This document shows, in pieces, positions 23,399-34,776 of a stretch of 64,000 nt of DNA (positions are counted from its first letter, which is position 1; each line of letters opens with the position of its first letter). Made by a program: the position numbers and the translations under genes. This DNA comes from Nitratireductor indicus C115. Lineage in GTDB: Bacteria > Pseudomonadota > Alphaproteobacteria > Rhizobiales > Rhizobiaceae. The DNA lies in contig NZ_AMSI01000001.1 of assembly GCF_000300515.1 (NCBI RefSeq), positions 372,001 to 436,000 on the forward strand, read 5' to 3'. A model generated the notes under the pieces. The model did no database searches and was not told the origin of the DNA. It saw only the letters and a list, made by a program, of their open reading frames with translations.

Positions 23399-24937
23399 AT
23401 GATGGATTCTGCTGCACGATCTGCGGTTAGCCGGGCCCGGCCATTCCTGCTCTGGCTTCTGGCTGTGGCGCTGGCCTTGGGTGGGCTGGCGCTCTATCAG
23501 CGCATGGTTCTCGATGCCGAGTTGCAGCGCCAGAGCGCCACGCTTCATCGCCTCGCTTCGCAGCAGGCCGACCAGCACGATGCGCATATGACTGCGCTTT
23601 CAGCAATTGCGGTGGCGGGGGAGGGGCAGCGTTTCGATCTCTTTCTGGAAGTCGCGGCCACCATCATGCGCTTTTATCAGCGCATCGATGCAATCCAGCT
23701 TGTGCCTCTCGCACAAACCCGCGAGATCATCGGCACGGAACCGCTCGATCCGCAACTGGCGGAGGCGATACGCGCTGCGGCCCGCGCAAGCGATGGCCAT
23801 ATCGCGCTGTTGCCCGATCCCGCGCTTGCTGACCATTACCGCATGGTCAAGCGCAGCCCCAACACCGATGCGGCGCTTTATGCGCTCACTCTTCGGGTCA
23901 ATGCTGAAAAGCTGTTGTCGGATGCCGGGCCTTTCTGGTCGCGGCCGGGCGTGACGATGCGGCTTTCGCTGCCGGATGGCGAAATCCTGAGCGGACCGGA
24001 AGCGCTGCCCGCTTCGGCCCGCTATTCCAAGGCGTTGGGCAGCGCTTCGCAACCGCTTCTTCTGGAAACGGGAATGCGCATCGGCCTTCCCGACCTTTTC
24101 CCACCCATGCGGGTCCTGGCGCTTCTGGTGGCGGTCACCCTGCTTTTCATTGCGGGCCTTGCCATTATGCGCCAGCGGGCGCGCACGCGCGATGCCCTGC
24201 AGCAGGTGCGGCTGAGCGCGATTGAAGCGCGGCTCACCCACGCTTCGCGCATCAATGCGCTGGGCGAGATGGCAAGCGGCATGGCGCATGAGCTCACCCA
24301 GCCTCTGACCGCTATCCTCGCACAGGCGCAAGCTGGACGCCGGCTTCTGGAACAAAAGGACACGGACGCCGTCGCATCGGTGCTTGATGACACAGTCAAG
24401 CAGGCGCGCCGCGCCTCCGATATTTTGGAGCGGTTTCGCAACTGGTCGCGCCCCCAGCAGGCGCTCGTTGCCGGTTTCGACCTGCGTAATGCGGTCGCCA
24501 ATGTGCGTGCCTTGCTGGCGCAGGCAAGTGCGGCCGAAGGGATCGAACTGGATATTCGGCTTCCTGCGGACCCCGTGCGTGTGGCGGCCGATCCGGTGGA
24601 GATGGAGCAGGTGGTGTTCAACCTGATGCGCAACGCCATCGAGGCTCTGGAAGGAATGAAGCCGCCCCGCCGTATCGTGGTGGAACTGAAGCGCGGGGAC
24701 GGCGCGGTCACACTCGATATTTCCGACAACGGTCCCGGCCTTTCGCCTGCGGTTAGGGATCGCCTCTTCACGCCTTTCACAACGACACGACCGGAAGGAA
24801 CAGGCCTCGGTCTGGCGCTCAGCCAGCGGCTGGTGGAGCGCGCTCATGGCGAAATCTCTCTGAAGGACGGGGGATTGGGAACGACCTTCCGCATCGTCCT
24901 GCCGCCGGCGGACGAAATGCCGGGAGAAAAGGAATGA
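23399..24937 (+). CDS. sensor histidine kinase, DctB/FixL-like, with periplasmic sensor domain
   Basis: Kinase of 512 residues. A first membrane span (FLLWLLAVALALGGLALYQ) and a second (VLALLVAVTLLFIAGLAI, about 238-255) enclose a periplasmic domain of about 200 residues with no obvious cofactor motif. The cytoplasmic part has the H-box MASGMAHELTQPLTAIL (His about 297), N-box NLMRNAIEAL, G1 DNGPGLS and G2 GTGLGLALSQRL. The HELTQPL form is typical of the FixL/DctB group. Its stop overlaps the ATG of the response regulator gene, so the two are a cognate pair. The next gene encodes a secreted HbpS/GlcG-like protein, as in the Streptomyces SenS/SenR system where HbpS modulates the kinase; that parallel is inference. 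Confidence 0.9.
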   Translation: MMDSAARSAVSRARPFLLWLLAVALALGGLALYQRMVLDAELQRQSATLHRLASQQADQHDAHMTALSAIAVAGEGQRFDLFLEVAATIMRFYQRIDAIQLVPLAQTREIIGTEPLDPQLAEAIRAAARASDGHIALLPDPALADHYRMVKRSPNTDAALYALTLRVNAEKLLSDAGPFWSRPGVTMRLSLPDGEILSGPEALPASARYSKALGSASQPLLLETGMRIGLPDLFPPMRVLALLVAVTLLFIAGLAIMRQRARTRDALQQVRLSAIEARLTHASRINALGEMASGMAHELTQPLTAILAQAQAGRRLLEQKDTDAVASVLDDTVKQARRASDILERFRNWSRPQQALVAGFDLRNAVANVRALLAQASAAEGIELDIRLPADPVRVAADPVEMEQVVFNLMRNAIEALEGMKPPRRIVVELKRGDGAVTLDISDNGPGLSPAVRDRLFTPFTTTRPEGTGLGLALSQRLVERAHGEISLKDGGLGTTFRIVLPPADEMPGEKE

Positions 24938-25542
24938 GCCTGCCCGTCTATCTGGTCGACGATGACGAGGCGGTGCGCTCGGCGCTCAGCCTGCTTTTGT
25001 CCACGGTCGGTATGCAGGTAACGGCTTTTGCCGATCCGCAATCCTTCCTGGCCAGAATCGGGGCCCTTGGGCCGGGATGTCTGGTGCTCGACATCCGTAT
25101 GCCAGCAATTTCCGGATTGAAGCTGCAGGAACGGCTTGCGGAGCAGGGCATCGACTGGCCGGTCATCGTGATTTCAGGGCATGGCGATATCGAGGCCTGC
25201 CGGCGCGCATTTCGCAACGGCGCGCTCGACTTTCTGTCGAAGCCGGTCGATGAGCAGGATCTGATCGAGGCCATCCAGAAGGGGCAGGAGGTGCTTGGCA
25301 GGACGTTGCGCGCCCGCGCGGAGAAGGCGGAGACGCTCGATCTGCTCTCGGCCCTGACGAGCCGCGAAAGCGAGGTCCTCGCCCTTATCGCTAAGGGTTT
25401 TACCACAAGGCAGATCGCGGAAGGCCTGGGCCTTTCTCCCCGCACGGTCGAAAGTCATCGCTCGGCCATAGGAACCAAGCTCGGCACGACCTCCCAGGCC
25501 GAATTGACCCGCATCTGGCTCGAAGGGCGTGTCACTCCGTAG
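24934..25542 (+). CDS. response regulator, FixJ-type (receiver + LuxR helix-turn-helix)
   Basis: Regulator of 202 residues overlapping the kinase gene by four bases. The receiver domain has the acidic pocket VDDDEA, the phospho-acceptor aspartate in LVLDIRMPAISG (about residue 52), the threonine/serine switch position in VISGHGD and lysine in LSKPVD. A LuxR-type output domain follows: LTSRESEVLALIAKGFTTRQIAEGLGLSPRTVESH. These features place it in the FixJ/NarL-like group of transcription activators. Likely targets are the three genes that follow, by proximity only. Confidence 0.93.
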   Translation: MSLPVYLVDDDEAVRSALSLLLSTVGMQVTAFADPQSFLARIGALGPGCLVLDIRMPAISGLKLQERLAEQGIDWPVIVISGHGDIEACRRAFRNGALDFLSKPVDEQDLIEAIQKGQEVLGRTLRARAEKAETLDLLSALTSRESEVLALIAKGFTTRQIAEGLGLSPRTVESHRSAIGTKLGTTSQAELTRIWLEGRVTP

Positions 25543-25629
25543 AACTACGGAGGCAATCGAGACCGCTACGAATATTGCCGGCCGGGTTCAGGAAGTAGCT
25601 TTTCTTCATCGCAAGAAAGGAGACCCCTG

Positions 25630-26112
25630 ATGATCCGTGAACTTATTCTCGCAGCCGCCGTTTCAGCACCTTTCGCCGCTTCGGCGCAGGAGCTGCCAAC
25701 CACTCCCTATCTGCCGCTCGACATGGCGACGACAGCTGCAAAGGCCGCTCTCGATGCCTGTGCCGCCGAAGGTCACAACGTCAGCGTTGCCGTGGTGGCG
25801 CGCGACGGCGCGACAAAGGTTCTGCTTAAGGCCGACAAGTCCGGTCCGCACACGGCAGGCAGCGCCCAGGGTAAGGCTTTCACATCTGCGGCCATGGGCC
25901 GCGACACGGCAGGTCTGGCCGAATTTATCAGCGGCAACCCGCAGAATGCGGGCCTGCGCGATATGGATAGCCGTATGGTTATTCAGGCCGGCGGCCTGCC
26001 GGTAAAGCTCGGCGGTGCGCTGGTTGCCGGCATCGGCGTGGGTGGGGCGCCCTCCGGCGCCGTCGATGCCACCTGTGCCCGCGCCGGGCTGGATGCCATC
26101 GGCGCCGAATAA
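25630..26112 (+). CDS. secreted heme-binding protein of the HbpS/GlcG family
   Basis: Protein of 160 residues with a signal peptide (MIRELILAAAVSAPFAASAQE) and a complete HbpS/GlcG domain (PF03928-like). Typical stretches are ALDACAAEGHNVSVAVVARDGATKVLLKADKSGPHT, a conserved GKAFTSAAMGRDT, and the C-terminal PVKLGGALVAGIGVGGAPSG. AAGGAGA stands before the ATG. In Streptomyces, HbpS binds heme and controls the SenS sensor kinase. Some GlcG-family members are instead encoded with glycolate oxidase, which is not seen here. The location directly after a two-component system favours an accessory sensor role in the periplasm. A GC-rich imperfect hairpin at 26132-26155 separates it from the ankyrin gene. 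Confidence 0.86.
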   Translation: MIRELILAAAVSAPFAASAQELPTTPYLPLDMATTAAKAALDACAAEGHNVSVAVVARDGATKVLLKADKSGPHTAGSAQGKAFTSAAMGRDTAGLAEFISGNPQNAGLRDMDSRMVIQAGGLPVKLGGALVAGIGVGGAPSGAVDATCARAGLDAIGAE

Positions 26113-26187
26113 AATCCTGCAAGGGAAGCGTGCGGCGGGCAATGTGGCTCGCCGCGCGTGTGCCATTCACTGAGAAGGAGCGTAACG

Positions 26188-26853
26188 ATGCTCGCCAGAA
26201 TCCTTCTGCCGCTGCTTTTGGCTCTGCCCATTCCTGCCCAGGCTCAAACTCCTCCTTCGCCCGCCGAGGCTGCAGCCTATGAGGGATTGCACAAGGCTGC
26301 CCGCGAGGGCGATGTCGCCGCGATCCGTTCGCTTGCGAAAGCGGGAGCGGATATGAATGATCGGGACAGCCGGGGGCGGACGCCCGTCCACGTCGCAGCC
26401 TTTGCGTCCAATGATGATGCTCTTCGCGCCCTGGCCGATGCCGGGGCTGACATGAATGCGCTCGAGAGCCAGGCCTATGACGCGGTCACCATTGCAGCTG
26501 TGGCGGATGATCCCGAATTGATGTCTCTGGCGATAGCACTTGGCAATCGGGCAGACCTCACCACCAGCCCCTATGACGGTACGGCGCTGATCGCGGCCGC
26601 GCATCTGGGCCATGTGGAGATCGTGAAGCGTCTTGTCGAGGCCGGCGCTCCTCTCGACCACGTCAACAATCTGGGATGGACGGCGCTGATCGAAGCCGTG
26701 ATTCTGGGCGACGGTGGAAGTGATCACCAGCAGGTTGTGCGCCTTCTGGTTCAGGCAGGCGCCGACCGTTCGATCGGCGACCGCGATGGCGTCACACCGC
26801 TTCAGCATGCACGCTCCCGTGGCTATGTCGAAATGGTCGAAGTCCTCGAATGA
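26188..26853 (+). CDS. secreted ankyrin-repeat protein
   Basis: Protein of 221 residues with a signal peptide (MLARILLPLLLALPIPAQAQ) and about five ankyrin repeats. Repeat signatures include GLHKAAREGDVAAIRSLAKAGADMN, RGRTPVHVAAFASNDDALRALADAGADMNALE, TALIAAAHLGHVEIVKRLVEAGAPLD, WTALIEAVILGDGGSDHQQVVRLLVQAGAD and GVTPLQHARSRGYVEMVEVLE. The ATG at 26188 is chosen because AAGGAG precedes it; an in-frame ATG 30 nt upstream has no such site. Periplasmic ankyrin proteins are protein-protein adaptors, and some protect against peroxide stress. Its neighbours (HbpS-like protein, two-component system, DUF4405 protein) suggest a shared redox or heme-related task. Confidence 0.88.
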   Translation: MLARILLPLLLALPIPAQAQTPPSPAEAAAYEGLHKAAREGDVAAIRSLAKAGADMNDRDSRGRTPVHVAAFASNDDALRALADAGADMNALESQAYDAVTIAAVADDPELMSLAIALGNRADLTTSPYDGTALIAAAHLGHVEIVKRLVEAGAPLDHVNNLGWTALIEAVILGDGGSDHQQVVRLLVQAGADRSIGDRDGVTPLQHARSRGYVEMVEVLE

Positions 26854-26866
26854 GGCGATGGCTCGC

Positions 26867-27370
26867 CTAATCCCGCGCCAGCGCGGAAACCAGTTCGGCC
26901 TCGCTCTTTTGCGAGGCTGCCGCTATGTCGGTGAGCGTCTGTTCGCTACCCGCGACGGAGAAGCCGGCAGCTGCAAGCTTTGCCTGCAATGCCTCCGGCG
27001 TCATATCCAGCACGGGCGCCATTTCTGCCACCGAAGCCGTCAATGCCTTGTGCGCGAAGGCAAATTGCGGCGGCCCGCCCGCCCGGTCGCCTCGACTTGC
27101 AGAAGCCGGATAGAGAAAAACCAGCGCTGCTGCCAGAGAGGCGATGAGCGCAATCGCCATAGGCGCGTGCCGCAGATAGCTTGTCATCGGCTTCCAGTTT
27201 TTCCAGATATGGAACGCGAAGGGTAGGATCAGCACCATGCTGAGCCACTCGTGCATTCCATGGAAACCCGACGGCCCCACATGGAAGAAAAGAGCTATTC
27301 CCGAGACGAGGGAAACGAGAAACAGACCGGTGATGAAGGGGGTGGCGTAGCGCGACAAAAGCCGTGGCAT
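26867..27370 (-). CDS. DUF4405 membrane protein, cytochrome b-like
   Basis: Protein of 167 residues. Three membrane segments are visible: YATPFITGLFLVSLVSGIALFFHVG, GMHEWLSMVLILPFAFHIWKNW and MAIALIASLAAALVFLYP. Histidines in FFHVGPSGFHGMHEW and FAFHIWKNW are placed as in the heme-ligating DUF4405 proteins. The periplasmic C-terminal half (about 95-167) holds two similar helical units ending in LTASVAEMAPVLDMTPEALQAKLAAAGFSVAGSEQTLTDIAAASQKSEAELVSALARD. It converges on the ankyrin gene with a 13-nt gap. Heme binding and an electron-transfer role are family-based inference. Confidence 0.78.
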   Translation of the reverse strand: MPRLLSRYATPFITGLFLVSLVSGIALFFHVGPSGFHGMHEWLSMVLILPFAFHIWKNWKPMTSYLRHAPMAIALIASLAAALVFLYPASASRGDRAGGPPQFAFAHKALTASVAEMAPVLDMTPEALQAKLAAAGFSVAGSEQTLTDIAAASQKSEAELVSALARD

Positions 27371-27515: not shown

Positions 27516-27604
27516 CGCGACGACATGCCGGTTTCATGCGCGCCCGCTAGGCAAATTGCATGAATGGGCCGGAAAGGCCCTCGACCTATTCGCGGGAAAA
27601 CCTG

Positions 27605-28444
27605 ATGCTGGAAATTCGCCAAGTCACGCGCCGCTTTGGAGCCAACACGGCCGTGCGCGATGTGACGCTTGAAATCGAACAGGGCCAGATGGTCGGCGTT
27701 ATCGGCCGCTCCGGCGCCGGCAAATCCACCCTTCTGCGCATGATAAACCGTTTGATCGATCCCTCTTCGGGGTCGATCTTTTTTCATGGAGCAGAGGTTT
27801 CCACCTTGCGTGGCGCCGATTTGCGACGATGGCAGCGCGATTGCGCGATGATCTTTCAGCAGTTCAATCTGGTTCCCCGCCTCGATGTGCTGACCAATGT
27901 CCTGCTTGGCCGTCTCAATCACCGTTCCACGGTGCTCAACCTTTTGAACATGTTCACCCGTGAAGAGCGCATTCGCGCGATCGCAGCGCTGGAGCGTCTC
28001 GACATTGCACAGACCGCATTGCAGCGCGCGGGTACGCTTTCAGGCGGCCAGCAGCAGCGTGTGGCGATTGCTCGCGCCCTCATGCAGGAGCCGAAAGTCA
28101 TTCTCGCCGACGAGCCGATTGCCTCGCTCGACCCGCTGAATGCCAAGGTGGTGATGGATTCGCTTGCCGACATCAACGCCCGTGAAGGCATCACTGTCAT
28201 CACCAACCTTCACACGCTCGACACCGCCCGCGCCTATTGCAGCCGCATCGTCGGCATGGCCAAGGGCGCCGTTGTCTTCGATGGCCCGCCGGAGGCGCTG
28301 ACGCGCGATGCCGTCAGAATGATCTATGGCGGCGAGGAAGGCGCGGAGCTTTCCGAAGCCATCACCTCGACCAGCATCAGCCTGCCTGAAACGCGGGCCA
28401 GGAAATCTTCCGGCCACGCGGTGCCCGCACTCGCCACCGCCTGA
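27605..28444 (+). CDS. phnC: phosphonate ABC transporter ATP-binding protein PhnC
   Basis: ABC ATPase of 279 residues with Walker [10 protein letters not shown] (about residue 38), the Q-loop in [23 protein letters not shown], signature [15 protein letters not shown], Walker [14 protein letters not shown] and the switch histidine in NLHTLDTA. The [16 protein letters not shown] stretch is typical of PhnC. The start [12 protein letters not shown] is preferred: GGGAAAA precedes it and the in-frame ATG 45 nt upstream has no ribosome site. The C-terminal 30 residues ([12 protein letters not shown]...) are a non-conserved tail. It energises import of phosphonates bound by PhnD through PhnE1/PhnE2, and the Pho box upstream implies control by PhoB. 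Confidence 0.95.
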
Positions 28445-28526
28445 ACGCCGGGATCGCCTTGCCCGCGTAACGGGCCGCCATTCCATGAAACATTGCCGGC
28501 AAAACCGGTGTCAAAGGAGAGACGTC

Positions 28527-29435
28527 ATGTTCAAGAAAGTCCTGATGGGCGCTGTCGCCCTTACCGCAATGATGGTTGGAGCCGCCGCGGCGGAAGACCT
28601 GAAGGAATTCCGTATCGGCATCCTCGGCGGCGAAAACGAAGCCGACCGTCTGCGCAATTTCCAGTGCATGGTCGACCAGCTTCCGGAAGTCCTCGGCGTT
28701 GAAAAGGTCTCGCTTTTCCCGGCCGCCGATTATGACGGCGTGATCCAGGGGCTTCTGGGCGGCACGCTCGATTATGCCGAGCTCGGCGCGTCCGGTTATG
28801 CCAAGGTCTATCTCGAGAACCCGAATGCAGTCGAGCCGATCCTGACCACGGTCCAGACCGACGGCTCTACCGGCTATTATTCCGTCATGGTGGCGCGCAA
28901 GGATTCGGGCCTGGCCAAGCTGGAAGACATGAAGGGCAAGAAGCTCGGCTTTGCCGATCCCGACTCCACTTCCGGCTTCCTCATCCCCTCGGTGACGCTG
29001 CCCAAATCTGTTGGCGCTTCGGTTGAAGAGTTCTTCGGTTCCACCGGTTTCGGCGGCGGCCATGAGAATCTGGTTCTCGAAGTCATGAAGGGCACCTTCG
29101 ATGCCGGCACGACCTGGGCATCGGGCGTTGGCGAGTTCTCCGACGGCTATTCCTCAGGCAATCTCCGCAAGATGGTCGACAAGGGCATCCTCGACATGGA
29201 TGACCTCGTCGAGCTCTGGAAATCTCCGCTCATCCCGAACGGCCCAGTCGTCGTTCGCACGTCCATGAATGCGGACATGAAGGGCAAGTTCAAGCAGTTC
29301 ATGATGGAGATGCCGGAGAAGGACCCAGCCTGCTTCTCTGCCATTCAGGGCGGTGACTACAAGGGGTATGTCGAAGTGACCCCGGCCTTCTACGAGCCGA
29401 TTTTCGACGCCCGCCGCTCCAAGATCGGTTCGTAA
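28527..29435 (+). CDS. phnD: phosphonate ABC transporter substrate-binding protein PhnD
   Basis: Periplasmic binding protein of 302 residues with a signal peptide (MFKKVLMGAVALTAMMVGAAAAED). PhnD family markers are IGILGGENEADRLRNF, the phosphonate-contacting YDGVIQGLLGGTLDYAELGASGYAKVY, LGFADPDSTSGFLIP and FDAGTTWASGVGEF. AAAGGAGAG stands before the ATG, the strongest ribosome site of the operon. A long hairpin follows the gene (29458-29530), a common way to keep more of the binding-protein message than of the downstream permease message. Confidence 0.95.
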   Translation: MFKKVLMGAVALTAMMVGAAAAEDLKEFRIGILGGENEADRLRNFQCMVDQLPEVLGVEKVSLFPAADYDGVIQGLLGGTLDYAELGASGYAKVYLENPNAVEPILTTVQTDGSTGYYSVMVARKDSGLAKLEDMKGKKLGFADPDSTSGFLIPSVTLPKSVGASVEEFFGSTGFGGGHENLVLEVMKGTFDAGTTWASGVGEFSDGYSSGNLRKMVDKGILDMDDLVELWKSPLIPNGPVVVRTSMNADMKGKFKQFMMEMPEKDPACFSAIQGGDYKGYVEVTPAFYEPIFDARRSKIGS

Positions 29436-29457
29436 ACCGGTCTCGCGAAAAAGCAAG

Positions 29458-29530
29458 CAAACGCCTCTTGAGCCTTTCGGCTGCGCTGTCTTTCTCTCTT
29501 GCGGGAGAAGGGCAGCGAAAGGGGCGTTTG
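29458..29530 (+). other. long imperfect hairpin between phnD and phnE1
   Basis: Outer arms CAAACGCC (29458-29465) and GGCGTTTG (29523-29530) are perfect. Inner arms CCTTTCGGCTGC (29473-29484) and GCAGCGAAAGG (29512-29522) pair with one bulged G, and the centre CTTGCGGGAGAAG resembles rhizobial intergenic palindromes. There is no T-run, so it is not a typical intrinsic terminator. A role in stabilising the upstream phnCD message or reducing read-through is likely. Confidence 0.6.
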
Positions 29531-29627
29531 CCGCGTTGAAGAACCAGCGCTTTTTGCATTCAGGCTGAATGACCTGATGTCCGCCTGAATGCGGAAACAA
29601 GAAGATCGAGTACGCGGAAGCCCTTCC

Positions 29628-30596
29628 ATGACAGCAACCACTCACACGACGCTTCTTTCCGAAGCCGGACATGCGGTCGAGCGCCACTGGCGCGAGCTCG
29701 CCGGTCGCCGCCGCCTTTACACGATTGGCGGGCTTCTCTTCCTCATGCTTGCCATGGGTGGTTCGCTTTGGTTCGCAAATGAATCCAACGCCGGAAAGTT
29801 TTTCGACCGGCTTCCCTATTTTTTCGATTTCGTCGGCCAACTCGTACCGCGGGATGGTTGGGAAATCTGGCGCGCCCTGTTCGACCTGCCATCGCCCTAT
29901 GACGACGGCAGCCTGAAATACAATTATCCTGCCGGCCGGATTTATCTGACCGAAACGCTCTATCTGCCCGAATATTTCTACAAGATGCTGGAGACCATCA
30001 ATATCGCGCTGGTTGCCACGCTGATCGGTTTCGGCTGCGGGTTCGTTCTGTGTTTTCTCGCCGCCTCCAACATCACCACACGGCGCTGGCTGCGCTTCTT
30101 CGTACGCCGCTTCATGGAAATCCTGCGCGCCTTTCCTGAAATCGTGATTGCGGGCTTCTTCCTCGCTGTTCTGACGATCGGTGCCGTGCCGGCCATCATC
30201 GCTGTGTCGATCCACACCATTGGCGCCCTCGGCAAGATGTTCTTCGAAGTGGTGGAGAACGCCGACATGAAGGCGGAGGAGGGGCTTCGCGCTGCTGGCG
30301 CCAATTGGGTCGAGCGCGTGTGGTTTTCCATCGTTCCGCAGGTCATGCCGAATTTCCTGAGCTACGCGCTGCTGCGGCTTGAGATCAATGTGCGTGCCTC
30401 CACCATCATAGGCGCGGTGGGCGGTGGTGGCATTGGCGAGGCGTTGCGCCTGTCCATCAGCCGCACGCACGAGGCCAAGACGCTCGCCATCATCCTTCTC
30501 CTGTTCTGCACCATCGTCGCGGTGGACCAGCTTTCCGCCTGGCTGCGAGCGCGCATCGTGGGCAAGCAGGCATTCGAATTCGGCCGGGGGGCGTGA
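29628..30596 (+). CDS. phnE: phosphonate ABC transporter permease PhnE (first copy)
   Basis: Inner-membrane permease of 322 residues with about six membrane segments. The first is LYTIGGLLFLMLAMGGSLWF and the core spans TINIALVATLIGFGCGFVLCFLAA. The cytoplasmic coupling motif EEGLRAAGANWVERVWFSIVPQVMPNFLSYALLRLEINVRASTIIGAVGGGGIGEALR is the PhnE form of the EAA loop. The ATG of MTATTHTTLLSEAG is used; an in-frame ATG lies 39 nt upstream (29589). It overlaps the second permease start region by a few bases, and the two should form the heteromeric membrane pore for PhnC and PhnD. Confidence 0.94.
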   Translation: MTATTHTTLLSEAGHAVERHWRELAGRRRLYTIGGLLFLMLAMGGSLWFANESNAGKFFDRLPYFFDFVGQLVPRDGWEIWRALFDLPSPYDDGSLKYNYPAGRIYLTETLYLPEYFYKMLETINIALVATLIGFGCGFVLCFLAASNITTRRWLRFFVRRFMEILRAFPEIVIAGFFLAVLTIGAVPAIIAVSIHTIGALGKMFFEVVENADMKAEEGLRAAGANWVERVWFSIVPQVMPNFLSYALLRLEINVRASTIIGAVGGGGIGEALRLSISRTHEAKTLAIILLLFCTIVAVDQLSAWLRARIVGKQAFEFGRGA

Positions 30597-30598
30597 TC

Positions 30599-32149
30599 AT
30601 GACGGAAGCAGAAGAAACCGCGCTGATTGCGCGCCATACCGCCGTTTTCGAGCGACCGCTTCTGGAGCGTATACGGGCTGGCCTCATCTTTGCAGGCGTC
30701 AGCCTCTATCTCGTTTTCGCATGGTGGCTGTTCGGCATCGGGCAGGTTCTGTCCGATGGCAGATGGGACATTGCCGGTGCATATCTGGCCGATTGGGTTT
30801 CCTATGAGGTGCGCCCAGATGTCGATTTCCAGGGCGAGGCGCTGGAGGTTTCGTTCCCGCGGTTTTCCCCGCTTGGCGAGAACCCCGATCCGGACTGGCT
30901 GGTGACACAGAAGGCCATGGTTGAAAGCCGTGCCGAAACGCAGGCGGATGTCGCAGGGGCAGCCGGCGGATCGACCAGCGATGCGGGCTTCCTGGGGGCG
31001 CTCTCCGCTGAGCCCGCTCCGGCTCCGGCGGGCGATGCAGGCTTTCTGGGATCCCTGTCCGGCAGCGCGGCTTCGTCTTCCTCGACCGGCACTGCGGAGC
31101 CTGCCGCGACAGCGCCGGCCCGCAGTGAGGCTGTCGTTGCGGCAGATATTTCCTTTGGCGGCGACACGTCGGTTAGCATCGTTCCGGGGCTCGTCACCGT
31201 CACCCATGCGGGTGAGACGCTTCTGCTCGACATCGTTGAAGACAAATCCGTCACTGCGCGCGGCGATCTGCCCGAATGGGCAAGCCAGCGCGCGCCGGGG
31301 GCCAAGGTCATCGCCCGTTTCGGCTTTGCCGGCCGCGCCGAGATCGAAGATGACGAGGTAAAGCTGCGCCGTCGCTTCCTGGGGTGGGAGAATTTCGTTT
31401 TCGACACCCGCTCTCCCTTCTGGGGGCTGCCGGCCTCGCAGGTAATCGGACTGATCGTGTGGGGTGAGCGCATTCAGCCCGAACGTTCCAATTTTGCGCT
31501 TGCCTTCGAAAATGTCTGGAACAACGCCGACTGGCAGCACGGCGATGTCTGGACGAAGTTGCTTCAGACCATCGTCATGGCCTTTGCGGGAACGGTGCTT
31601 GCCTCGATGCTGGCGTTCCCGCTTGCCTTTGCAGCTGCGCGCAACATCACGCCCAACCGTTTCGTGAACCAGTTGATGAAACGCTTCTTCGATTTTCTGC
31701 GCTCGGTCGACATGCTGATATGGGCGTTGTTCTTCACGCGTGCTTTCGGACCCGGGCCGCTTGCGGGCATCTCGGCAATCTTCTTCACCGACACGGGCAC
31801 ATTCGGAAAGCTCTACGGTGAGGCGTTGGAGAACATCGACGACAAGCAACGCGAGGGGGTGCGTTCGGTTGGCGCCGCGCCGGCTTCGGTCCAGCGTTTT
31901 GGAGTGGTCCCGCAGGTTCTGCCCGTGTTTTTGAGCCAGTCGCTTTATTTCTGGGAGTCCAACACCCGCTCCGCCACAATCATCGGCGCGGTCGGTGCTG
32001 GCGGCATCGGTCTCAAATTATGGGAGGCGATGCGCACCAACCAGGACTGGGAGAACGTCGCCTATATGGTGATTTTGATCCTGATCGTTGTTTTCGTCTT
32101 CGACGCGATCTCAAGCGCGTTGCGTCATCGTCTCATCGGGATGCGCTGA
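30599..32149 (+). CDS. phnE: phosphonate ABC transporter permease PhnE (second copy) with large periplasmic insert
   Basis: Permease of 516 residues, much longer than the first copy. The membrane core is at the C terminus (about 320-515), with LLQTIVMAFAGTVLASMLAFPLAF and the coupling loop GVRSVGAAPASVQRFGVVPQVLPVFLSQSLYFWESNTRSATIIGAVGAGGIG. One membrane span stands near the N terminus (GLIFAGVSLYLVFAWWLFGIG). Between them is an insert of about 250 residues. It contains an Ala/Ser/Pro-rich stretch in which DAGFLGALS and DAGFLGSLS form a short tandem repeat (about 125-150), followed by a folded-looking segment. ATG at 30599 is preferred to GTG at 30593, which overlaps the previous stop. Long second PhnE proteins occur in rhizobia; the repeat-bearing linker is the odd part. 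Confidence 0.92.
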   Translation: MTEAEETALIARHTAVFERPLLERIRAGLIFAGVSLYLVFAWWLFGIGQVLSDGRWDIAGAYLADWVSYEVRPDVDFQGEALEVSFPRFSPLGENPDPDWLVTQKAMVESRAETQADVAGAAGGSTSDAGFLGALSAEPAPAPAGDAGFLGSLSGSAASSSSTGTAEPAATAPARSEAVVAADISFGGDTSVSIVPGLVTVTHAGETLLLDIVEDKSVTARGDLPEWASQRAPGAKVIARFGFAGRAEIEDDEVKLRRRFLGWENFVFDTRSPFWGLPASQVIGLIVWGERIQPERSNFALAFENVWNNADWQHGDVWTKLLQTIVMAFAGTVLASMLAFPLAFAAARNITPNRFVNQLMKRFFDFLRSVDMLIWALFFTRAFGPGPLAGISAIFFTDTGTFGKLYGEALENIDDKQREGVRSVGAAPASVQRFGVVPQVLPVFLSQSLYFWESNTRSATIIGAVGAGGIGLKLWEAMRTNQDWENVAYMVILILIVVFVFDAISSALRHRLIGMR

Positions 32150-32297
32150 AAACGGCAGATGCACTGAAAACGGAATGAGAGGGGTTCCGAATACCGTTCC
32201 GGTTTCCAGACCGATGCGCTAGGCTCGATACGCATACGGGATTCGTTATTTTGTCACGCAAATCGCCTATTGCATCGTGATCGGCGAGGAGAAGATC

Positions 32298-33005
32298 ATG
32301 CGTTATGCCATTTACTTCACCCCTGAACAGAACGATCCGCTGACACGGGCCGCTGCCCGCTGGCTCGGGCGCGATGCGTTTACGGGCGAGCAGAATCCAC
32401 CGGTCGAGACGGATGTATTCACGGCCGCCGAAATTGCCTTTCACACGGCTGCGGCGCGCCGATACGGTTTCCACGCGACGCTGAAGGCGCCTTTCAGCCT
32501 GGCCGAAGGGCAGACCGAGCAGGGGCTCATTGCCGCACTGGCGGATTTTGCGCAGCGCACGGACCCGCTTTTCCTGCCGCGCGGGGTGGTGCGCCGGCTG
32601 GATGGCTTTTATGCGCTGGTGCCCGAGGAACGCTCGGCGAGCCTCGACAGGTTTGCCGGAAGCGTCGTCGAATCCTTCGAGCCATTCCGGGCGCCTTTGA
32701 GCCCCGAAGACATCGAACGCCGTAATCCGGAGAATTTGAGCCCCGCTCAGCTAAAAAATCTCCACAAATGGGGTTATCCTTACGTCTTCGAGGAATTCCG
32801 CTTCCACATGACCCTCACGGGGCGCGTGCCGCAGAATGAAGCAGCACGCATGGAACGCGCCATCGACGGCTTTTTCGGTCCGCTTTTGTCGGAGCCGCTT
32901 GAAATTGCATCGCTTGCCCTCTTCGTGGAGCCGGAACCGGGAGCCCCTTTCCTGGTCAGGTCCTTCCACGAATTGGGCTGGGCCAAGACACGAAAGACCG
33001 CATGA
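32298..33005 (+). CDS. DUF1045 phosphonate-operon protein (2H phosphoesterase fold)
   Basis: Protein of 235 residues of the DUF1045 / TIGR03223 family found in phosphonate operons. Two HxT motifs stand at the expected spacing of the 2H phosphoesterase superfamily: YGFHATLKAPF (about residue 60) and FRFHMTLTGR (about 175). The start is the ATG after CGAGGAGAAG. Its TGA overlaps the ATG of phnM. No phnP is present in the cluster. PhnP hydrolyses the cyclic ribose phosphate made by C-P lyase, and a 2H phosphoesterase could do this job. That substitution is my inference, with support only from gene context and fold. Confidence 0.88.
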   Translation: MRYAIYFTPEQNDPLTRAAARWLGRDAFTGEQNPPVETDVFTAAEIAFHTAAARRYGFHATLKAPFSLAEGQTEQGLIAALADFAQRTDPLFLPRGVVRRLDGFYALVPEERSASLDRFAGSVVESFEPFRAPLSPEDIERRNPENLSPAQLKNLHKWGYPYVFEEFRFHMTLTGRVPQNEAARMERAIDGFFGPLLSEPLEIASLALFVEPEPGAPFLVRSFHELGWAKTRKTA

Positions 33006-34147
33006 GAATGACGACCGAACTGATATTGAAGAATGCCCGCATCATCCTGCCCGACGAGGTCGTGACGGGCAGTGTGGCGATCCGTGACGGACGCATCGTC
33101 GACGTTTCCACCGGACCGGCGAACGCCGGCGAGGACATGGAAGGCGATTACATCCTGCCTGGGCTCGTCGAGCTGCACACTGACCATCTGGAACGCCATT
33201 ACGCTCCGCGTCCGAAGGTGCGCTGGAACCCGATTGCCGCCGTGCTCGCCCACGATGCGCAGATCGCTGCCTCCGGTATCACGACGGTGTTCGATGCGTT
33301 GCGCATCGGCCTCGACGAGGATGCGGACCTGGAATCAAGCGAGATGCGCCAGCTTGCGGATGCCATCGAGGGCAGCCTTGCCGCAGGCCGTCTGCGCGCT
33401 GACCACTTCTTCCATCTCCGCTGCGAGGTTTCGGCGCCTGACTGCCTGGAGGGCTTCGCGCTTTTCGACGGCGACGACCGCGTCAAGCTTGCCTCGCTGA
33501 TGGACCATTCCCCGGGCCAGCGCCAGTTCACGCAGATCTCGACTTACGAGATGTACTACCGCGGCAAGACCGGCATGAGCGAGGAGGCGTTCAAGAGCTT
33601 CTGCGAAAAGCGCATGGAACAGTCGCGCCGCCATTCTTCGGTCAACCGCAAGGCGATTGCCGAGATGTGCCATGATCGCGGCATCGTGCTCGCCAGCCAC
33701 GATGACGCCACGCTCGACCATGTGGACGAGGCGGCGGAGCAGGGGGTTCGCGTTGCCGAGTTCCCGACAACCGCGGAAGCCGCGCGTGCCTCCCGCGAGG
33801 CGGGCATGCAGATTCTGATGGGTGCGCCCAATGTGGTGCGTGGTGGTTCCCACTCCGGCAATGTCTCCGCGCGCAGTCTCGCCGAAGACCGCACGCTCGA
33901 TATCCTCTCTTCGGATTACATCCCCTTCAGCCTTGTTCAGGCGGTGTTCTCGCTGGGCGAGACCGTGGACCACATATCGCTGCCGCAGGCTGTCGCCATG
34001 GTTACGAAGAACCCCGCCGAGGCCGTGGGGCTGGAAGATCGCGGTATCGTCGAGGAAGGCCGCCGCGCCGATCTCGTGCGTGTTCGCGTGGATGAGCATG
34101 TGCCGGTGGTCCGTTCTGTCTGGCGCGAGGGAGCGCGGGTGGCATGA
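33002..34147 (+). CDS. phnM: alpha-D-ribose 1-methylphosphonate 5-triphosphate diphosphatase PhnM
   Basis: Amidohydrolase-superfamily enzyme of 381 residues that removes pyrophosphate from ribose 1-phosphonate 5-triphosphate before C-P cleavage. Motifs include LPGLVELHTDHLERHYAPRP (metal-binding HxD form of PhnM, about residues 53-72), GITTVFDALRIG, and the later histidines in LASHDDATLDHVDEA and GGSHSGNVSA. The C terminus MVTKNPAEAVGLEDRGIVEEGRRADLVRV is the standard beta-sandwich closing of the superfamily. The start overlaps the DUF1045 stop, and an ATG six bases later is an alternative. The TGA overlaps the phnN ATG. Confidence 0.95.
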   Translation: MRMTTELILKNARIILPDEVVTGSVAIRDGRIVDVSTGPANAGEDMEGDYILPGLVELHTDHLERHYAPRPKVRWNPIAAVLAHDAQIAASGITTVFDALRIGLDEDADLESSEMRQLADAIEGSLAAGRLRADHFFHLRCEVSAPDCLEGFALFDGDDRVKLASLMDHSPGQRQFTQISTYEMYYRGKTGMSEEAFKSFCEKRMEQSRRHSSVNRKAIAEMCHDRGIVLASHDDATLDHVDEAAEQGVRVAEFPTTAEAARASREAGMQILMGAPNVVRGGSHSGNVSARSLAEDRTLDILSSDYIPFSLVQAVFSLGETVDHISLPQAVAMVTKNPAEAVGLEDRGIVEEGRRADLVRVRVDEHVPVVRSVWREGARVA

Positions 34148-34776
34148 GGTCGTCCGCCACGCTGGAGCGCGTCATCGACGAGCAGGAATTCCCGATCCGC
34201 AACGGCGTTTTCGTTGCCGTCGCAGGGCCCTCGGGTGCCGGTAAGGACTCGGTGATCAATTATGCGCGCCAGCGTCTCGGTCCGCTTGAAAACGAGGTGA
34301 CCTTTGTACGTAGGGTCATTACCCGCGCCATGGATGGCGCGGGCGAGGCGCATGACTGCCTTACCGATGCCGCCTTCGAGAAGGCGCGCCTCAACGGATG
34401 CTTTGCCGTCAGCTGGCAGGCAAATGGCCTGCGATACGGTCTTCCCGTCAGCGTCGACGAAGTGGTGCGCGGCGGGAATGTGGCGGTTGCAAATGTGTCG
34501 CGCAGCGTCATTCCCGCCTTGCGCGAGCGTTATGAGAACGTGATCGCCGTGCTGATCACCGCAGGGCGCGATGTTCTTGCCGACCGATTGTCGCGGCGCG
34601 GCCGTGAGACGCGTGAGGAAGTTCTGGAGCGGCTGGAGCGCGCCCACGCAAAGGAGCTTGTCGTTGAGAACGCGACGGTGATCGATAATTCTGGCGCATT
34701 GGAGGAGGCGGGTGAACGCTTCCAGGATATTTTGCGCCGCGCCGCGGCATGGAGCGCGGTGAGCGATTCCATCTGA
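34144..34776 (+). CDS. phnN: ribose 1,5-bisphosphokinase PhnN
   Basis: Kinase of 210 residues of the guanylate-kinase fold that converts ribose 1,5-bisphosphate to PRPP. It has the P-loop VAVAGPSGAGKDSVINYARQRL (about residues 25-46), FVRRVITRAMDGAGEAHDCLTDAAF, which is characteristic of PhnN, and the lid region VLADRLSRRGRETREEVLERLERA. It is the last gene of the rightward phosphonate unit and is followed by a strong palindrome (34792-34815). With PhnG-M it gives a full route from alkylphosphonate to PRPP, apart from the missing phnP step. Confidence 0.93.
   Translation: MRSSATLERVIDEQEFPIRNGVFVAVAGPSGAGKDSVINYARQRLGPLENEVTFVRRVITRAMDGAGEAHDCLTDAAFEKARLNGCFAVSWQANGLRYGLPVSVDEVVRGGNVAVANVSRSVIPALRERYENVIAVLITAGRDVLADRLSRRGRETREEVLERLERAHAKELVVENATVIDNSGALEEAGERFQDILRRAAAWSAVSDSI

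Follow-up and report, generated by a model that had tools for sequence, protein, structure and literature searches.

A proposed portable two-component cassette in Nitratireductor indicus, with an exported HbpS-like protein as its probable output

The 64,000-nt stretch of DNA analysed here (the window) lies within the 4.99-Mb assembly of Nitratireductor indicus C115 (contig NZ_AMSI01000001.1, 372001-436000) and carries, side by side, genes for a sensor histidine kinase, a FixJ/LuxR-type response regulator, an exported HbpS-like protein and an exported ankyrin-repeat protein. We read these genes as a portable, self-contained cassette in which a kinase with a dCache-type sensor domain would act through the FixJ-like regulator on the hbpS promoter, with HbpS as the output, and we put the probability of this reading at about 0.6. 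Three points lead us to place HbpS at the output end of a circuit with one input and one promoter: the kinase has a predicted ligand domain of its own, HbpS has a conserved promoter of its own, and HbpS accompanies different kinases elsewhere. An initial annotation of this DNA had joined five adjacent genes into one cassette, the fifth encoding a DUF4405 cytochrome-like protein. All five open reading frames, read from the window, are present at the coordinates it gave; what holds together is a unit of three core genes (kinase, regulator and hbpS) and one optional gene (ank), and the convergent, unconserved DUF4405-like gene is not a member. Among the papers listed by searches of the open-licence literature, none describes this cassette.

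A conserved and probably mobile gene neighbourhood

With nothing but the kinase sensor domain as query, 284 pattern matches led to 214 relatives, of which the best 80 were used; the regulator lies next to the kinase in 78 of these loci, and HbpS is present in 78. The adjacency of kinase, regulator and HbpS exceeds chance, because 78 of the 80 loci have it even though only the sensor domain was used to find them. The two exceptions are L153, whose contig breaks off within the regulator gene, and L158 (Sulfitobacter brevis), in which an insertion of ~2.5 kb splits the regulator gene, with operator, hbpS and ank intact beyond it; two genes resembling an insertion-sequence (IS) pair lie within that regulator gene (L158:7715-9929). 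The triad is found in Hyphomicrobiales, Rhodobacterales, Burkholderiales and one Halomonas. The initial annotation had asked for a count of co-occurrence and whether the neighbourhood is conserved outside close relatives, as it is.

An HbpS search of 247 genomes of the family matched 100 at E 0.001, remote relatives included; 38 loci were mapped from the matching genomes, and ten plasmid loci were added. Kinase and regulator accompany HbpS in 25 of the 38 (tblastn), down to ~33, 50 and 40% identity. A codon-usage gene caller missed hbpS in L042, L045, L047, L051, L054, L062, L063 and L075; for L033-L070, tblastn was therefore used to score presence. Pairwise distances among kinase, regulator and HbpS correlate at 0.91, 0.81 (kinase with HbpS) and 0.79 (n=78), and those with the ankyrin protein at 0.68 to 0.73 (n=40).

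A quick tree of the concatenated proteins requires 9 changes of order label, the minimum possible being 3. The cassettes of Nitratireductor pacificus and Nitratireductor sp. ZSWI3 fall together with that of the window, and the five Nitratireductor cassettes do not form one clade (approximately unbiased (AU) p 7.8e-5, again on the quick tree, in a test chosen after differences among those copies had been noticed). Copies of the cassette occur on plasmids, some of them typed as conjugative, and hbpS-ank alone is plasmid-borne too. These facts are most simply read as transfer of the whole unit, with paralogy and wrong bins as the alternatives. One plasmid record (L076) is labelled Roseateles (Betaproteobacteria), a label that is probably wrong.

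The inferred hbpS promoter and its predicted operator

Upstream of hbpS lies a conserved promoter of the activator type, which consists of a dyad TCCGTAGaaCTACGGA, then N14, CTACGaAT and an invariant -10-like TA. In the window, a perfect dyad TCCGTAGAACTACGGA at 25536-25551 runs across the regulator stop codon, with CTACGAAT 14 nt further on. A gap-free alignment anchored on the operator takes in the window promoter together with those of 72 of the 80 loci (omitting L153, L158 and six with more than 3 mismatches), 73 promoters in all and 69 distinct rows. Dyad and half-site (positions 30-37) are common to the rows, in which G at position 23 and TA at 60-61 are invariant. The complete TAnnnT from position 60 is found in 35 of the 69, and there is no conserved -35 among them. 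If the TA opens a -10 element, the two sites would be centred around -64 and -43, where an activator in contact with polymerase would sit, and hbpS transcription would start near 25608.

The full operator pattern occurs once in the 5-Mb genome of N. indicus at up to 3 mismatches, with no second operator of this pattern, and the backwards control gives 0. Across 395 genomes of the family there are 29 matches in 28 genomes. Directly upstream of hbpS, one per genome, lie 24 of these (15 with 0, 6 with 1 and 3 with 2-3 mismatches); the five that lie away from hbpS (L083, L094, L105, L108 and L109) all have 2-3 mismatches. A slightly wider pattern at up to 1 mismatch has 3 matches in 387 genomes of the class, one each (the window's own site, a site in G475 ~60 nt before hbpS of a triad, and L235), with no control match among those listed. 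Among the sensor-domain loci, the operator is located upstream of HbpS in 77 of 80; L122 has an altered dyad and a 15-nt spacer. In 8 of 12 distant triads, the dyad is within 2 mismatches of the slightly wider pattern.

Several observations weigh against the proposed circuit. Thirteen of the 38 mapped HbpS loci have neither kinase nor regulator (tblastn), and several HbpS homologues without these partners (e.g., L043 and L054) show no operator; shared descent, too, raises distance correlations. In the 395 family genomes the backwards control at up to 3 mismatches yields 28 matches against 29. The number alone therefore shows nothing, whereas mismatch level and place do: the case for the operator stands on the matches with 0-1 mismatches and their position. 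For the dyad alone only an exact match counts: at up to 3 mismatches it is not uncommon (39 of 100 shuffles of the window have two or more). The distant triads L061, L065 and L066 have a dyad at 3 mismatches, which 13 to 18 of 500 shuffles equal, and L060, in the same set of 12, is without a clear dyad. Finally, divergent sites would escape the search, so that 'one target' holds for this pattern only.

That last point bears on a different reading, in which this is an ordinary two-component system with many distant targets and hbpS is merely the nearest. FixJ-type regulators often govern several promoters, and a search with one motif would see only part of such a regulon. What makes this reading improbable is that each of the 24 family genomes with the operator at hbpS has a single match, and that its position before hbpS is fixed in relatives.

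The kinase sensor domain

Two hydrophobic transmembrane segments (judged by eye) flank a periplasmic domain of the kinase (approximately residues 35-236), beyond which lie HisKA and HATPase_c. The predicted fold of this domain is a two-module Cache fold between two transmembrane helices, which is the arrangement of a dCache sensor domain, and Q59, H60, H63, F92, Y93, R95, Y147 and K151 are invariant in it. Sequence searches recognize little of this: the window's domain has no Pfam match at E 1, the relative L067 reaches only 11.7 bits for dCache_1 (cut-off 45), and a PDB sequence search returned only capsid proteins (E 0.32 and 0.35). A predicted fold of the dCache type makes it likely that the kinase responds to a small ligand of its own and that HbpS is the output. 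The passages of a preprint that deal with haem-bearing Cache domains (PMC12889525) concern DUF3365.

HbpS: output or input?

The assignment of the third gene to the HbpS-like proteins is borne out: it scores 89.8 bits for PF03928 (cut-off 25), its N-terminus looks by eye like a Sec-type signal peptide ending ASA-QE, and its nearest solved relative is HbpS of Streptomyces reticuli (91.7 bits in a PDB search, with E 4.7e-25 for 3fpv). In the sections of PMC3754957 on that protein, T113 is the haem residue, E78xxE81 is the main iron motif, K83A reduces iron binding, and K83 and D143 affect or flank it. The window protein lacks this haem residue and this iron motif, having R115, G77 and Q80 in their stead, and neither is conserved. 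The T113 position in 29 triads is R in 17, F in 9 and L in 3; glutamate is present at the E78 position in 2 of these triads and at that of E81 in a single one, but in 4 of 6 orphans. K83 and D143, in contrast, are retained as K82 and D146, so the window HbpS may bind some metal. Haem sensing, which the initial annotation had proposed, is weakened by the absence of T113 and of the main iron motif; the residues neither support nor refute it.

C44, H74, K82, D146 and C149 are invariant in the 29 triads and in 6 orphans with signal-like N-termini, and the same five are invariant in 78 of 78 sensor-domain loci (from genomes that partly overlap with the 29-triad set). Neither cysteine is present in streptomycete HbpS. 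Outside Proteobacteria both are found in five aligned Deinococcus proteins and in Arthrobacter, and not in Embleya, Streptomyces or Nonomuraea. C44 and C149 are probably joined by a disulfide, because the first and last helices are antiparallel in the family, according to the structural part of PMC4923194. The genome of N. indicus has a second HbpS homologue (L062, G000:C3:313460-313900), 57% identical, which is without kinase, regulator or operator beside it.

If HbpS were instead the input, binding the kinase sensor domain and setting kinase activity by its haem, iron or redox state as reported for SenS, its induction would be feedback. The strict pairing of HbpS with this type of kinase (78 of 80 loci), the correlated divergence of the two (r 0.81), the S. 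reticuli protein as nearest solved relative and the retention of the iron-related residues as K82 and D146 all favour this arrangement, and the conserved cysteine pair could serve as a redox switch. Against it stand the loss of T113 and E78xxE81, the predicted dCache-like domain of the kinase, and the occurrence of hbpS-ank without an adjacent kinase; that HbpS adjoins other types of kinase elsewhere is easier to reconcile with an output than with a partner dedicated to the kinase. With HbpS also under a dedicated promoter with a likely operator, the role of kinase tuner that the initial annotation had suggested for HbpS is weakened, and we judge it unlikely.

Optional and excluded neighbours

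The ankyrin protein has repeats scoring 103.2 bits by Pfam and, by eye, a Sec-like signal peptide ending AQA-QT. It is, as had been noted, an exported ankyrin protein, joined to the system only optionally: its gene directly follows that of HbpS in 40 of 78 relatives, and an ankyrin match lies anywhere in the locus in 45 of the 80 sensor-domain loci. HbpS-ankyrin pairs also occur without adjacent kinase and regulator (L044, which is the same as L076, L054, L073 and L080). At E up to 1e-40 the ankyrin family has 26 places in 24 of 299 genomes of the phylum, with HbpS within 700 nt at five of them; an obligatory or HbpS-specific partner is rejected on these two counts. Several other copies of the family adjoin LysR-, deaminase-, MFS transporter- or amidohydrolase-like genes (by eye). 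The most recurrent further neighbours in the 80 loci, in overlapping subsets, are likewise LysR (9), dCMP-type deaminase (8) and MFS (7), one or two members of each cluster having been identified. A recurrent block of LysR, dCMP-type deaminase and MFS genes (L112, L118, L121, L122, L127, L143, L210, L217 and L218; Pfam identification mainly from L112) often goes along with a member of this ankyrin family and in some cases lies beside the cassette.

The DUF4405-like gene (PF14358) scores 26.1 bits against a Pfam cut-off of 26.7 and is encoded on the minus strand, its 3' end facing that of ank, which rules out a common transcript. DUF4405 was not found in the 38 HbpS-fetched loci (tblastn), nor as a label among called genes near HbpS in the 10 plasmid loci, nor in any of the 80 sensor-domain loci; among 11 genomes of the genus, the gene is present in that of N. 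indicus C115 only. It was accordingly rejected as a cassette member on strand, score and distribution. A five-part haem or oxidant module including it, as first proposed, has physical adjacency in its favour and these same facts against it, and is very improbable.

HbpS in other phyla and with other kinases

HbpS matched 51 plasmid records by tblastn, and 25, chosen for variety among 40 of these, were examined. A two-component pair lies beside HbpS in 21 of the 25 (in H31 with one gene between); the stretches of H10, H16, H17 and H25 showed no such pair. In 13 of the 25, an ankyrin gene is directly 3' of HbpS. The pairs differ in kind. Nine alphaproteobacterial records have a pair like that of the window (8 by kinase similarity and H15 by its regulator); three actinobacterial records have a HisKA_3 kinase and a LuxR-type regulator in divergent orientation; six Deinococcus records have a HisKA kinase (L197 and L201 by Pfam, with PAS, and four by 48 to 71% identity to L197); one Vibrio record has an OmpR-type regulator and a kinase whose HisKA score is under the cut-off, with a similar kinase in one Photobacterium; and one Salmonella enterica plasmid has HisKA with a LuxR-type regulator. 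On a plasmid of S. enterica subsp. houtenae (L203), an outer-membrane beta-barrel protein is encoded where ankyrin would be, after kinase, LuxR-type regulator and HbpS-like gene. In Actinomycetota and Deinococcota, the ankyrin proteins beside HbpS share 40 to 42% identity and the motif HVN-x-LGWT with that of the window; in their called form, some of them lack a signal peptide.

A broader proposal, which we advance tentatively and at somewhat less than even odds, would be that HbpS-type exported proteins are a plug-in output in at least three phyla, separately coupled to different two-component systems (dCache HisKA/FixJ-like, HisKA_3/LuxR-type, PAS-HisKA/LuxR-type and HisKA-like/OmpR-type), often together with one ankyrin family. 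The kinase would be exchanged while HbpS stays, and in the proteobacterial version an undescribed dCache subfamily would govern essentially a single promoter.

Layout of the locus

The features of the locus are collected in Table 1. The last 4 nt of the kinase gene (24934-24937) belong to the regulator gene as well, and the Pfam domains of the two confirm the two-component pair of the initial annotation. FixJ (NF006900) is the best NCBIfam match of the regulator, at 173.1 bits, under its cut-off of 255. A nitronate monooxygenase-like gene lies upstream of the cassette and a phosphonate uptake cluster downstream; directly past the cassette, 27560-34776 holds phnC and phnD above NCBIfam cut-offs and more phn-like genes (by eye). 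No RNA family reaches its gathering score within the window.

Table 1. Features of the cassette and the adjoining gene (positions in the window)
Feature	Position	Strand	Basis or remark
Sensor histidine kinase	23399..24937	+	Pfam HisKA + HATPase_c
FixJ/LuxR-type response regulator	24934..25542	+	Pfam Response_reg + GerE
Predicted regulator operator	25536..25573	+	Dyad TCCGTAGAACTACGGA, 14-nt spacer, half-site CTACGAAT; covers regulator stop codon
-10-like element TAGCTT of the putative hbpS promoter	25596..25601	+	TA invariant in 69 distinct aligned promoters
Exported HbpS-like protein (PF03928)	25630..26112	+	Pfam
Exported ankyrin-repeat protein, optional member	26188..26853	+	Pfam; 75 nt 3' of hbpS
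DUF4405-like gene	26867..27370	-	Pfam score just under cut-off

Mechanism, known systems and significance

The circuit might work as follows. The kinase would bind a small periplasmic molecule through its dCache-type domain, as the predicted fold and conserved residues suggest, and would phosphorylate the FixJ-like regulator, as is expected of its family. The regulator would activate the hbpS promoter by binding its two tandem sites (about -64 and -43), a role to which the conserved sequence architecture points. The output would be the exported HbpS-like protein, roughly half the time with the product of the directly following ankyrin gene. Once in the periplasm, HbpS, with its probable C44-C149 disulfide, may have as its target a tetrapyrrole or a small molecule that is reactive or redox-active, and it could feed back on the kinase.

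The closest known system is HbpS-SenS-SenR of Streptomyces, in which, as described in sections of PMC4991794 and PMC3754957, an exported PF03928 protein is likewise clustered with a kinase and a LuxR-type regulator. HbpS is reported in PMC4991794 to act on SenS as input, and SenS/SenR are reported, to judge by a cited title, to modulate HbpS production; a passage of PMC4991794 states that only some actinobacteria have hbpS-like genes clustered with senS and senR. The window kinase belongs to HisKA (PF00512), is dCache-like and is encoded co-directionally, whereas the kinases beside HbpS in the three actinobacterial loci compared are HisKA_3 and divergent, and the window HbpS differs from the Streptomyces protein in its haem and iron residues while sharing the equivalents of K83 and D143. 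EfgA, the DUF336 formaldehyde sensor, is of the same domain family and, as far as the pocket region is treated in PMC8153426, has a lysine and an aspartate that seem to be the counterparts of K82 and D146; on an assumed correspondence to the EfgA pocket numbering (K57, S114 and D121), K82 and D146 are invariant and S142 is found in 18 of 29 triads. EfgA is, however, cytoplasmic and has no kinase, going by the same source, and the window HbpS matches it only at E 0.005 (PDB search). The resemblance to FixL/FixJ is limited: the regulator scores best against FixJ but at 173 bits versus 255, and the kinase reaches 141 bits against a FixL cut-off of 850, in the kinase core only. Periplasmic AnkB is an ankyrin protein linked to haem or peroxide enzymes. 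So is Cj1386, an ankyrin haem-trafficking protein, likened here by its description in part of PMC11442138.

HbpS-like proteins commonly owe their haem-binding annotation to a Streptomyces protein; the haem residue and the main iron motif of that protein are missing here. The published view, with HbpS and a two-component pair in actinobacteria only, is widened to Proteobacteria and to a different kind of kinase. The cassette would be a compact one-input, one-output sensor that is also plasmid-borne. Since it brings along a kinase, a regulator and a single, precisely delimited promoter, it makes the function of the family directly testable, the promoter being a ready reporter for the inducer.

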